The notes under the pieces are model-generated. The model ran no database searches. It was not told the DNA's origin and saw only the letters and a list, made by a program, of their open reading frames with translations. From a virus, in the IMG/VR virus record IMGVR_UViG_3300044302_000022, positions 1 through 31,339 of that record: 31,339 nt of DNA, one strand, 5' to 3'. The position numbers and the translations under genes are program-made. This document shows, piece by piece, positions 3,790 to 17,030 of the stretch (position 1 is its first letter; every line of letters starts with the position of its first letter).

Positions 3790-3984
3790 ATGGCTAAGAG
3801 AACTAAAGGATATGCAAAAGGTGGCGCGGCCAAGAAGATGATGGGCGGTGGCATGATGCGGAAACGCACGAAGTCTATGGCTAAAGGCGGTGCGGTTAAG
3901 GCCAAGAAGATGATGGGTGGTGGCATGATGCGGAAACGCACGAAGTCTATGGCTAAAGGTGGTGCGGTCAGACGACGGAAGTAG
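3790..3984 (+). CDS. Repeat-built basic Gly/Met-rich protein
   Basis: A 64-residue protein made almost entirely of two copies of a 24-residue unit (AKKMMGGGMMRKRTKSMAKG plus GAV and one residue), preceded by a partial copy (KGYAKGGA). Net charge is strongly positive, with no acidic residues and no cysteines. The unit alternates Lys/Arg clusters with flexible MMGGGMM. I recall similar KGG/MMGGG proteins in pelagic phages, without a role. It starts two bases after the upstream stop, and the next gene follows with no gap. It is likely disordered; polyanion binding is inferred. Confidence 0.65.
   Translation: MAKRTKGYAKGGAAKKMMGGGMMRKRTKSMAKGGAVKAKKMMGGGMMRKRTKSMAKGGAVRRRK
3829..3968 (+). repeat. 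Two 68-base near-identical tandem repeats
   Basis: Copies at 3829-3896 and 3901-3968 (period 72) differ at only two positions, both third-codon C/T changes in glycine codons. They encode the 24-residue units of the small basic protein. Confidence 0.85.
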
Positions 3985-12025: not shown

Positions 12026-12534
12026 TGGCTATTGGTTCATCCGCAATGTGCGGAACATTCAAGAAGGAGATACTTGCGGGCATCCACCGTTTGACATCAA
12101 GCTCTCGCGGAGATTCAAGTGCGATAAGCGCGGACACTTTTAAAGTGGCGATGTTTACGAATAGTTCTTCTATTGACGCTGACACCACTCAATACACTAC
12201 CAGTAACGAAGTTTCTGGCACCAATTACACTGCGGGAGGTGCCGCTCTTTCTAGTGTAACCATTACGCTTGGAGATAACAGTTCTTCTGTTCCCACTGCT
12301 TATGTAGACTTTGCAGACACTACGTTTTCGTCTTCTACGATTTCGAGTGCTAGAGGTGCTTTGATCTATAATTCAACTCTGAGTGGTGCAAGCACAGGTT
12401 CTACAACTACGGCAGCAGCGAATCCAGCGGTAGCCGTTATTAACTTCGGTGGGGACAAGTCATCTAGTGCAGGAGACTTCACCATTCAGTACCCTGCAAA
12501 TGACGCAAACAACGCTATTATCAGGATTTCTTAA
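12025..12534 (+). CDS. Tail-associated structural protein (FKVAMFTNSS...VDFADTTFSS family)
   Basis: A 169-residue protein with CGTFKKEILAGIHRL, SADTFKVAMFTNSSSIDAD, TSNEVSGTNYTAGGAALSS, AYVDFADTTFSSSTISSARG, ALIYN and VINFGGDKSSSAGDFTIQYP. This is a widespread phage structural family I recognise by these motifs: a beta-rich protein often found near tail-fibre genes. Its precise location is not known to me. Both junctions are TAATG, and AGGAGG sits just upstream of the start, so it is probably well expressed. Confidence 0.7.
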   Translation: MAIGSSAMCGTFKKEILAGIHRLTSSSRGDSSAISADTFKVAMFTNSSSIDADTTQYTTSNEVSGTNYTAGGAALSSVTITLGDNSSSVPTAYVDFADTTFSSSTISSARGALIYNSTLSGASTGSTTTAAANPAVAVINFGGDKSSSAGDFTIQYPANDANNAIIRIS

Positions 12535-13067
12535 TGGCTCTAATCACTGGCTGGGATAGAAGTACTTGGAACTCCGGGTCTTGGAATAGTCCACTTCCCG
12601 TAGAAGTTACAGGTGTTTCTGCCGCCAGTGCCGTAGGCTCCGTAACTATAAGTCTTCCTGTATCAGTTAGCGTAACGGGTGTATCTGCTGCCAGCGCGAT
12701 AGGGACGGCAACTGCGACAGGTGTATCAAACGTAAGCGTAACGGGTGTATCTGCTGCAAGTGCGGTGGGTAGCGCCACAATAGTTGAAGGAACGGGTGTA
12801 ACTTTCAGCGTAACGGGTGTATCTGCTGCAAGTTCGGTGGGTAGCCCGACGTTAATAACAAACTCTATTCTTTCTCCATCTGGAGTTTCTGCGGCAAGTG
12901 CGATAGGATCGGTACAAATTAACTTTAGTTTCTCTGTAGAAGGAGTGTCTGCTGCGGGTTTGGTTAACAATGTATTAATTTGGGATCGGATTGATGATTC
13001 ACAGACCTCTGGGTTTACAGAAATTAATGCATCCCAAACACCTACATGGACACAAATAGCGGCATAA
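12534..13067 (+). CDS. Repeat-built fibre-like protein (TGVSAASAVGS repeats)
   Basis: A 177-residue protein. The N-terminus (GWDRSTWNSGSWNSPLPV) is Trp-rich, followed by six imperfect repeats of SVTGVSAASAVGSATI separated by variable short linkers. The C-terminus (WDRIDDSQTSGFTEI, then TPTWTQIAA) is again Trp-rich with W..I pairs. I recall proteins with a GWGR.TWG..WN.P start and such repeats in marine phages. The repeats suggest a slim beta fibre or an array of small strands, capped by Trp-rich ends that may bind carbohydrate or partner proteins; that is inference. Confidence 0.65.
   Translation: MALITGWDRSTWNSGSWNSPLPVEVTGVSAASAVGSVTISLPVSVSVTGVSAASAIGTATATGVSNVSVTGVSAASAVGSATIVEGTGVTFSVTGVSAASSVGSPTLITNSILSPSGVSAASAIGSVQINFSFSVEGVSAAGLVNNVLIWDRIDDSQTSGFTEINASQTPTWTQIAA
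12603..12979 (+). repeat. Six in-frame TGVSAAS repeats
   Basis: Six units begin at about 12603, 12669, 12735, 12807, 12879 and 12936. Units 2-4 share the exact 23-base AGCGTAACGGGTGTATCTGC plus TGC at 12669, 12735 and 12807. The last two units are the most divergent. Confidence 0.75.
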
Positions 13068-13077
13068 GGACGGTACG

Positions 13078-14574
13078 ATGGCATCTTCATTTACAACAAA
13101 TTTTGGCATTGAAAAGATTGGCTCTGGTGAGCAGTCCGGTGCCTGGGGAACGACCACTAACCACAATTTAGACCTTTTAGATCGCATAGCGTCATTCAAG
13201 GCTGTTGGACTATCCAGCACTACGCACACGTTAACGGTTCGAGAGGCATCCCCTGGTGCAGGCACCGAGAACCTTCAAGACGGTATGTTTCGTGTTATCA
13301 AGTTTACGGGCGCACTTGGGGCTAACAATACGGTCACCGTGGCACCTAATACGACAACGGCATATTTTATCTTTATCAACGCGACGACGGACTCTGGTTC
13401 TAGTGGGCCGTACTCTGTGATCATATCGCAAGGGACGGGTGCCAACATCACCATTCCTAACGGTCATACGGCTGTTGTGTTTTGCGATGGCGCAGGATCT
13501 GGCGCGGCTGTTGTGGACGCCTTTGCAAGTCTCTACGTGTCGGATGCTCTACGGATAGGTGACGGTACTGCGGAAGACACGAAGATCGTTTTCGATGGCA
13601 ACGCACAGGACTATTACATTGGCCTGGATGACTCCGCAGACGACCTCGTCATAGGATTGGGGTCTGCGGTAGGCACAACGCCAGCCGTATCCATAGATGA
13701 AAACCAAGCCGTGGTGTTTCCAGCGGCGGCGGTAACCATAGGTGACGGCACTGCGGAAGACACAAAACTTGTTTATAACGGCAACGCAAAAGACTTCTAT
13801 GTGGGCTTAGACGATAGCGCCGACAAATTGGTGGTTGGCGTGGGCTCTACCGTTGGAACGAACAGTGTCATGACGATAGATGATGATGCTGTTACGATTG
13901 GCGATGGCGCGGCGGCGGATACCAAACTTGTTTTCGATGGCAACGCTCAAGATTACTACATAGGGCTGGATGATTCGGCGGATGACCTTGTTATAGGTCT
14001 TGGATCTACGGTTGGCACCACACCGGCAATCTCAATTGATGAGAACCAAGCCGTAGTGTTCCCAGCCGCTGCCGTCACCGTTGGGGATGGGACCGCCGAA
14101 GACACAAAGTTTGTTTTTGATGGGAATGCTCAAGACTTCTACATAGGCTTGGACGACTCGGCAGACGATCTTGTCTTCGGTCAAGGGTCAACGGTTGGCA
14201 GCAATGTAGCCTTCGCGATTGACGAGGATCAAGTAACACAGTTCAGTCATGCGGCGGTGGGTTCTACACAGACGGCGAACGCTACGGGAAGCACCACTCT
14301 TGACTTTCAGACCTACCAGAACTTCGTTTTGACGTTTACTGGCAACGTGACGCTTGCCAACCCATCAACTGAAGCAGTTGGTCAGTCTGGGTTTATTACC
14401 ATTATTCAAGACGGCACAGGAAGCAGAACGCTTGCTCTTGGCACCGATTACGAAACAGCGGGAGGATCGGGACTGACAATATCGACGGCGGCGTCAGCAG
14501 TTGATGTCGTGCCGTATGTAGTTAAAGCAAGCGGGTCCATTCAGTTGGGTGCCGCGCAGTTGGCGTTCGCATAA
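13078..14574 (+). CDS. Tail fibre with four GDGTAEDTK repeats
   Basis: A 498-residue protein. The N-terminus (FTTNFGIEKIGSGEQSGAWG, TTTNHNLDLLDR) is a common fibre attachment signature. About residues 50-160 are a beta domain. About 158-394 contain four repeats of GDGTAEDTK.VFDGNAQDYYIGLDDSADDLV, likely each a layer of a trimeric fibre shaft. The C-terminal about 100 residues (TLDFQTYQNFVLTFTGNVTL, GQSGFITIIQDGTGSRTLAL) form a conserved end domain I recall from many phage fibres. The Asp/Gly-rich repeats could bind calcium, which is inference. The next gene starts in a TAATG overlap. Confidence 0.8.
   Translation: MASSFTTNFGIEKIGSGEQSGAWGTTTNHNLDLLDRIASFKAVGLSSTTHTLTVREASPGAGTENLQDGMFRVIKFTGALGANNTVTVAPNTTTAYFIFINATTDSGSSGPYSVIISQGTGANITIPNGHTAVVFCDGAGSGAAVVDAFASLYVSDALRIGDGTAEDTKIVFDGNAQDYYIGLDDSADDLVIGLGSAVGTTPAVSIDENQAVVFPAAAVTIGDGTAEDTKLVYNGNAKDFYVGLDDSADKLVVGVGSTVGTNSVMTIDDDAVTIGDGAAADTKLVFDGNAQDYYIGLDDSADDLVIGLGSTVGTTPAISIDENQAVVFPAAAVTVGDGTAEDTKFVFDGNAQDFYIGLDDSADDLVFGQGSTVGSNVAFAIDEDQVTQFSHAAVGSTQTANATGSTTLDFQTYQNFVLTFTGNVTLANPSTEAVGQSGFITIIQDGTGSRTLALGTDYETAGGSGLTISTAASAVDVVPYVVKASGSIQLGAAQLAFA
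13552..14257 (+). repeat. Four fibre-shaft repeats (61, 53, 61 residue spacing)
   Basis: The GDG codon of each repeat begins at 13558, 13741, 13900 and 14083. Repeat 2 is eight residues shorter, lacking the QAVVFPAA segment. Repeats 1 and 3 are nearly identical in protein but differ at many synonymous positions in DNA. Confidence 0.8.
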
Positions 14575-17030
14575 TGCCGATTTGGTCACCAGCCATGATC
14601 TTTGGTTCTGCGACATCTGGGTATGTCGTTGAGAACTCTCTCTGGTTCGATGGTTCTGCTGACTATTTAACTAAAACATTTGGTAGCACGGGTACTAGTC
14701 GAACAGTGTACACTGTTTCTTTTTGGGCTAGACAAAATACGGCAAGCCCTACTGGTGGTAACAACTGGGTAATTGATGTTGGTGCAAGTGGTGGTAATTC
14801 AGAAGGTGTTCGGTATACAGGCAGTGGAGAAGGATCACTATACATACAAGCTACTGATGGTACGGAAGCTCTAAATACTGGGGATGCTGCGAGATTTAGA
14901 GACTTAACTGCATGGCAACATGTGGTTTGGGCGCGTAATACAGGGAACGCTGATGGAAACAAGAATAAACTCTATGTCAACGGAGTGCGTATTACGTCAT
15001 TTGATAGTTCTTATGGAACTAGAGGGCAGAACCTGACATCAAACGGAAATTTTGGTGGGACAGACCCTTATAGCATTGGACGCGATGCGTATGGTGGAAC
15101 TGTTTACTATAACGGATACCTAGCCGAATTTGCTGTAATAGATGGCACGGAGTATGCGGCGAGTGATTTTGGAGAGTTTGACGACAACGGTGTATGGATT
15201 CCAAAAGACCCTTCTGGATTGACCTACGGCGACAATGGTTTTCTGCTTCAGTTCAAGCAAACCGGCAGTGGTCAAGACTCAAGCGGTATTGGCGCGGACA
15301 CCTCTGGAAAAGACAACCATTTTGCGGTTGGCGGGGGGTCTATACAAACTAACCAAGTCACCGACACATGCACTGATGATGCTAATAATAATGTTGGAAA
15401 TTACGCAACATTCAATCCGCATGATCGTCATGGTTCTACAACGCTTGCTGATGGCAACCTACATGCAAACGGAACGACCACTCATGAAGCGCAAATTCGC
15501 ACAACGATTGCGTTAACCGGGAAAAAATATTGGGAAATAGAGGCCGACACGTTAAATGCAGATGCAGCGTTTATTGGGATCCTGAAAACGAACACTGACA
15601 TTACAACGATGAACAACCATTCACTGGGAACCACGGCTGACGGGTATTCGATAAATTGTTCAACAGGATCGAATAATGGTAAACTTTTTAATAACAACAC
15701 AAATGGAACCGATCTTGGAACTATTGCAAATGGGGACGTTATCAGTGTCGCTTTTGATGCCGATACTCGAAAATTGTTTTTCGGGAAAAACGGTTCCTGG
15801 TTAGGTTCGGCTGATCCAGCGAACGGAACTAATCCAGCTTATACAGCAAGCGTTGGAACGTATACGGCGGCTGTTAGCGTTTACACAACGTCATCCTTAT
15901 TCAAAGCAAACTTCGGCCAAACCGCATTTTCCTACACTGTCCCAACTGGTTTTGATGCAGGAATAAACACCGCCAATCTCCCGGCTCCGACTGTGACAAA
16001 CCCATCCGACTTTTTCAAAACTGTTCTGTACACGGGGAATGGTGGCGACAAATCTGTTACTGGCGTTGGATTTCAACCCGATTTTGTTTGGATAAAATGT
16101 CGTTCGGTAGCTACAAACTGGAATGTGGTAGACGTTGTTCGTGGTGCCGATGCTATGTTGAGAATGGCAAGTAGTACCAACACAGAACAAAGTGGTGCAA
16201 ACCAAGAATTTGAGAGTTTTGATGCTGATGGGTTTACGGTAACTCACCACGGTGGCGTTGTTGAAGAACTAAATAGAAGCAGTGCAACTTACGTTGCGTA
16301 TTGCATGAAAGCTGGTGGGGCGGCTTCAAGTAATGGTAACGGCAGCATTACAAGTCAAGTAAGCGCAGCATCTCATGGTGGATTTAGCATTATTACATAT
16401 ACTGGCGATGGGAACGCTGGAGCTACAATAGGTCATGGCCTTAGTCAAGCTGCGGAGTTTCAAATTTTTAAACGGCGAACTCCTGCTCAAGATTACCACG
16501 TTGGTACAAACATAACAGGATCAATTACTGGTTATGAATTTAATAACGCCACTGCAAGTGTTACTGCGGCGGTTACTGCATTTAATGCAACCACTACAGC
16601 GTTGGATAGTCAGGGCGTTGTTAATGATGAAGATGATACTTATGTAAGTTATGCTTTTGCTAGGACACCGGGTCTGATTGGTATTGGCTCATATACAGGA
16701 AATAACTCTGCTGATGGTCCATATATAGTTATTGATGACGGGGCATCTGGTTTCAGACCGGCTTGGGTAATGATAAAAAGAATTGGGTCTACAGGAAATT
16801 GGGTTATTCGTGATGCGGTAAGAAACCCATATAACCCTGTAAACTTAGAACTTTATGCTAATGCGACTGATGCAGATTATACAGAAGACCCTGGCTTAGA
16901 TTTTACTGCGAATGGTTTTAAACTTAGAGATACGGCGGGAGCAATCAATGCTTCTGACAGCTACATCTATCTAGCATTTGCCGAGAATCCATTTGGTGGC
17001 GACGGTGTAGCGCAAGCGAAGGCACGGTAA
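14574..17030 (+). CDS. Receptor-binding candidate: LamG-like, SPRY-like and DUF7483-like domains
   Basis: An 818-residue protein. Residues about 20-205 look like a concanavalin/LamG lectin domain: SLWFDGSADYLTKTF, YTVSFWARQ, WQHVVWARN, NKLYVNGVRI, YNGYLAEFAVIDG. About 312-457 resemble SPRY: KKYWEIEAD, FIGILKT, GYSIN, DVISVAFDADTRKLFFGKNG. Three related C-terminal units follow (about 482-580, 603-690, 700-812), each with a YTGN/YTGDG start and a PDFVWIK or PAWVMIKR strand, as in DUF7483. Together these suggest a large cell-surface-binding appendage. The gene is clearly AT-richer than the fibre gene before it, a sign of module exchange. The start is TAATG-coupled. Binding target is unknown. Confidence 0.8.
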   Translation: MPIWSPAMIFGSATSGYVVENSLWFDGSADYLTKTFGSTGTSRTVYTVSFWARQNTASPTGGNNWVIDVGASGGNSEGVRYTGSGEGSLYIQATDGTEALNTGDAARFRDLTAWQHVVWARNTGNADGNKNKLYVNGVRITSFDSSYGTRGQNLTSNGNFGGTDPYSIGRDAYGGTVYYNGYLAEFAVIDGTEYAASDFGEFDDNGVWIPKDPSGLTYGDNGFLLQFKQTGSGQDSSGIGADTSGKDNHFAVGGGSIQTNQVTDTCTDDANNNVGNYATFNPHDRHGSTTLADGNLHANGTTTHEAQIRTTIALTGKKYWEIEADTLNADAAFIGILKTNTDITTMNNHSLGTTADGYSINCSTGSNNGKLFNNNTNGTDLGTIANGDVISVAFDADTRKLFFGKNGSWLGSADPANGTNPAYTASVGTYTAAVSVYTTSSLFKANFGQTAFSYTVPTGFDAGINTANLPAPTVTNPSDFFKTVLYTGNGGDKSVTGVGFQPDFVWIKCRSVATNWNVVDVVRGADAMLRMASSTNTEQSGANQEFESFDADGFTVTHHGGVVEELNRSSATYVAYCMKAGGAASSNGNGSITSQVSAASHGGFSIITYTGDGNAGATIGHGLSQAAEFQIFKRRTPAQDYHVGTNITGSITGYEFNNATASVTAAVTAFNATTTALDSQGVVNDEDDTYVSYAFARTPGLIGIGSYTGNNSADGPYIVIDDGASGFRPAWVMIKRIGSTGNWVIRDAVRNPYNPVNLELYANATDADYTEDPGLDFTANGFKLRDTAGAINASDSYIYLAFAENPFGGDGVAQAKAR

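Follow-up and report, generated by a model that had tools for sequence, protein, structure and literature searches.

Tail fibres of marine podophages encoded in metaviromic islands combine a conserved N-terminus with a repetitive middle and a variable C-terminus (PMC3909814). Their repeat patterns are fibre-specific and share no sequence similarity with one another (PMC3909814). For protein repeats, Persi et al. (2016) described conservation between species and rare homogenisation, both as general features; the data sets in the part of that paper considered here come from cellular organisms (PMC5120217). The gene analysed in this work, on the plus strand at 13078–14574 of a 31,339-base virus record (the window, meaning this whole stretch of DNA), encodes a putative tail fibre of 498 amino acids with an N-terminal domain, four repeat units of about 50 residues and a C-terminal domain. 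It thus has the same plan as the metaviromic-island fibres; its repeats, in contrast, belong to one unit family present in at least 117 distinct genes. As with the birth-and-death repeats of Persi et al., purifying selection conserves them between relatives and homogenisation is uncommon; that study stresses, however, a rapid and relaxed divergence among the repeats within a protein, whereas here same-type units of one gene retain roughly 81% protein identity at saturated synonymous sites (PMC5120217). A motif text search of the open-access literature found no paper that names the unit.

The window's major capsid protein shares 75–76% identity with its counterparts in phage DSL-LC04 and Pelagibacter phage HTVC023P, and its portal-type protein is 50–57% identical to those of HTVC023P-type pelagiphages and DSL-LC04, but no match to the window fibre was found in the records of these phages. 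The fibre gene lies downstream of capsid and SU10-adaptor-like genes, i.e., in the virion structural module, and adjoins a gene whose product matches a PHROG tail-fibre family and DUF7483. This adjacent ORF (14574–17030) encodes 818 amino acids with SPRY and DUF7483 domains and is a candidate for a receptor-binding partner of the fibre. Residues 1–135 of the fibre ORF match PHROG 31104 and residues 329–489 match PHROG 4757, both of unknown function. In the C-terminal domain of the putative fibre (14251–14571, plus strand), the C-terminal 95 residues are 76% identical to the annotated fibre protein of Roseobacter phage CRP-811, in which, however, none of these repeat units was found; annotated fibre proteins of S-CBP2 and others are matched as well.

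The whole fibre protein matched no Pfam family at E 0.001. The T7-like N-terminal domain PF03906 was absent among the matches of the N-terminal part at E 10; this distinguishes the protein from the metaviromic-island podophage fibres with which it was compared (PMC3909814), and by this domain it does not count as a T7-type tail fibre. A hit of the repeat region to Pfam DUF5114 was set aside, since its 27.9 bits against a cut-off of 27 were summed over four repeats and it was missing in the whole-protein scan. The AlphaFold2 monomer model is all-beta (mean pLDDT 75.9, pTM 0.37), and its Foldseek neighbours among viral models include annotated phage tail fibres at low TM-scores. Foldseek matches in the PDB were not used (TM-score ≤0.17 on the query), and a sequence search of solved structures gave nothing convincing. 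With weak annotation and a monomer model of low pTM, a putative tail fibre is the best reading of this ORF.

The four units start at 13555, 13738, 13897 and 14080, with steps of 61, 53 and 61 amino acids, and fall into two types: type K, with K18 and mostly K30 (unit positions), and type Q, with Q18/D30. R1 with its linker (13555–13728) and R3 with its linker (13897–14070) are of type Q, R2 (13738–13890) is of type K with K18/K30, and R4 (14080–14250) is a terminal variant of type Q, GSNVAFAIDEDQ; all are on the plus strand, and the array reads Q-61-K-53-Q-61-Q. The initial annotation had stated that a stretch of 26 residues is identical in two of these repeats while 15 of its 26 codons differ synonymously. 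Translation confirms this exactly: 13588–13665 in R1 and 13930–14007 in R3 (plus strand) both encode VFDGNAQDYYIGLDDSADDLVIGLGS, with 16 nucleotide differences in 15 codons, all of them synonymous. Over their full length R1 and R3 agree in 54 of 61 residues, so that the match is close but not complete. The units are 90% identical in protein in the core and stay in register over about 164 nt, which shows that their homology is not due to chance. Their likeness in protein follows from both being of type Q.

At the DNA level, R1 and R3 share as many codons as chance would give. Under the codon usage of the genome, 9.6 shared codons are expected in the 26-codon stretch and 11 are seen; across all 61 codons, 20 are shared at same-residue positions with 19.4 expected. 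Permutation within the four window units gave a mean of 81.1 shared codons against 87 observed. Nei-Gojobori counting shows synonymous saturation (pS 0.78–0.94) together with low dN in every one of the six pairs of window repeats; R1 and R3 have pN 0.05 and pS 0.92. The shared-codon counts hence indicate that R1 and R3 differ in DNA as much as complete randomisation of synonymous choice would make them differ, and no more than that. The recoding is not special; it is the ordinary outcome of great age and strong protein constraint.

The codon test has the power to detect young copies, because it finds excess sharing in the neighbouring ORF at 12534–13067, where 22-residue repeats share 52 of 115 codons with 29.2 expected. 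These repeats carry the motif GVSAASAVG, and some copies have nearly all codons in common (12 of 13 in one pair) and are hence younger or homogenised, unlike the fibre units. That the DNA identity of the two stretches is only what their common protein forces would also be compatible with unrelated units having converged on the same protein. We regard convergence as hardly conceivable, however, since the units align over their whole length, their linkers match, and a single family spans the 117 distinct genes.

These genes were gathered by four scans of IMG/VR and mostly carry two to four units, with a maximum of seven; one contig (L046) has ORFs at 760 and 3325 with four units each, and some phages thus code for a pair of these proteins. 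Within these uncultured phages, 33 distinct genes contain the exact 26-mer, 37 times in all and in 28 DNA spellings, which differ by a median of 15 codons, the very number seen between R1 and R3. Codon sharing in 420 within-gene repeat pairs was 1.03 times the expectation from each gene's own usage. Constraint on the protein is strong, as had been suspected: same-index units of relatives have a median dN/dS of 0.077 in pairs below saturation, in line with the low pN of R1 and R3, and R1 of the window and R1 of the related contig L017 have the same protein sequence throughout the unit core at a pS of 0.85. The repeat region had no match among 50,697 phage records (E 1), and a scan of genome contigs yielded only two weak loci. 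Weak relatives of the repeat lie in two bacterial MAG contigs (L289 and L290), one from a Phycisphaeraceae bacterium and one from an unclassified bacterium, and are possibly viral sequence binned with hosts.

Adaptive recoding, by which synonymous scrambling would hinder recombination between repeats and stabilise fibre length, had been put forward in the initial annotation. Selection would then remove DNA identity between units, suppress unequal recombination and so fix the length of the fibre. Synonymous saturation of every window pair agrees with this, as does a longest shared run of only 17 nt in the window. However, selection against identity predicts exact shared runs shorter than under random synonymous choice, and of 65 genes, 43 had shared runs that exceeded the random length and a single gene had significantly short ones. 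Exact shared runs of within-gene pairs measured 12.5 nt against 11.0 nt for random choice, and those of control pairs from different genes 10.5 against 10.2 nt. Codon sharing was at the random level and not under it, and the neighbouring gene tolerates its near-complete sharing. As codon sharing, permutation, longest runs and different-gene controls all showed no deficit, we reject selection against DNA identity and consider adaptive scrambling very unlikely.

Nor is fibre length stable, because unit number changes readily among close relatives. Where N-termini are at least 95% identical, 4 of 20 gene pairs have different unit counts, so that even genes with N-termini 95–100% identical can differ in this respect; at 90–95% N-terminal identity the figure is 8 of 21 pairs. 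The fibre genes of L114 and L286 have identical N-terminal domains and four and three units, respectively, and their tails align with an offset of one unit. Unequal exchange, or the loss of a unit, would produce this pattern.

Age alone does not account for everything. The slight excess of within-gene runs points to occasional homogenisation inside the gene, and in the L018 fibre gene (at 3982) R2 and R3 are 91% identical in DNA and share 37 of 44 codons, the most homogenised pair seen. This pair is likely a recent duplication or conversion, and together with the run excess it speaks against pure age and for some recent homogenisation. Young duplicates may moreover be under-represented in our sample, because near-identical repeats are prone to collapse in short-read assembly.

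Homogenisation is nevertheless not the main mode. Clustering of repeats within one genome, the pattern of concerted evolution, was not seen: of 211 units, 204 had their nearest neighbour in a different genome and 7 in their own, and we hence reject concerted evolution as the main mode, with R2/R3 of L018 as the clearest exception. Saturated dS and this clustering across genomes bear out the earlier suggestion that the copies are old. The expectation that repeats cluster by position across phages holds in part. They do cluster across genomes, by type and largely by position: the nearest neighbour has the same index for 133 of the 211 units, but a different one for 71. In a tree built from 56 units of 14 genes, two main groups correspond to the unit types, with position groups nested inside; one holds R2 and nine R3 units, the other R1, R4 and the other five R3 units. 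Position must change three times each for R1, R2 and R4 on this tree and six times for R3.

Joining of the units also follows their type. Among 65 representative genes, which are related so that counts are not independent, type-K units that have a next unit always show a 53-residue step, whereas type-Q units are followed by a step of 60, 61, 69 or 87 residues or by the array end, and none of the typed arrays ends in K. One might therefore read the arrays as (K)n-Q modules, a two-unit grammar in which phages trade blocks and the shaft consists of recombining, interchangeable parts with joining rules written in the protein. We put this forward tentatively, as a possibility that is somewhat less probable than not.

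Direct comparison of close relatives shows that blocks of the array have been exchanged. Identity between contigs L005 and L016 is about 99% as far as codon ~285 and about 73% beyond it. Compared three ways, L005 tracks L016 to ~285, the window over ~286–390, i.e., R3–R4, and L016 again from ~391, so that L005 resembles the window only in R3–R4 and L016 on either side of this block. On the window the exchanged block (codons ~286–391, limits approximate) corresponds to 13935–14250 on the plus strand. A corresponding switch, again where R3 begins, separates the window from L010 and L004 from L010; in other close pairs the identity drops abruptly at other points of the array, and some of these pairs also differ in unit number and C-terminus. 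Since changepoints lie frequently but not universally near unit starts, we do not claim a fixed crossover site. The earlier proposal that one copy may come from a related phage is upheld to the extent that distal repeat blocks are exchanged between close relatives, probably through homologous recombination during co-infection.

All relatives are metagenome contigs and repeats are typical places of misassembly, and the mosaics could hence be chimeras assembled from co-occurring strains. Against this, arrangements recur across several datasets, some of them possibly from one study (L005–L009 with L015; L010 with L011; L002 with L003), and the L005-type arrangement is present in contigs of six datasets. 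We therefore think assembly chimeras improbable.

Exchange between phages also bears on how R3 came to be of type Q. As a refinement compatible with our preferred explanation, R3 might have been imported within an R3–R4 block that replaced a type-K unit, rather than duplicated from R1 inside the gene. At R3, close relatives have either Q (window, L004, L005, L014) or K (L010, L016, L051); their N-terminal and R1–R2 backgrounds are almost the same, and L005 combines window-like R3–R4 with L016-like flanks. On the other hand, the type-K lineage may be the recipient instead, which makes the direction ambiguous for the window lineage, and on the tree no outside relative is clearly nearer to R3 than other Q units are. 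Synonymous saturation means that donor and age of the window R3 are unrecoverable. Import is thus a serious candidate to which we give nearly even chances.

Taken together, we consider it highly probable that old, constrained units, synonymous saturation and array change mainly by block crossover between related phages jointly explain the observations. The array would then be an old collection of shaft-like units, rich in beta structure, in a tail fibre of podophage type. Purifying selection on the protein would hold each unit near the consensus of its own type, while drift at synonymous sites would have reached saturation in the time since the divergence of the units. R1 and R3 would encode the same protein because both sit at the type-Q consensus. 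Arrays would change mainly via crossover between related phages that replaces distal blocks of units, with occasional in-gene homogenisation and the gain or loss of a unit as minor routes. Poor recombination between units of one gene would at most be a by-product of their divergence.

The locus provides a worked case in which saturation can be separated from selected recoding, a distinction that is easily missed where identical protein repeats are written in different DNA. Units of this fibre family are old, common to many uncultured phages, and moved as blocks rather than freshly copied within the gene. This repeat family occurs widely in uncultured phages, had no match in the isolate collection that was searched, and shows visible exchange of blocks. 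It could serve the study of how marine phage fibres change in length and composition.
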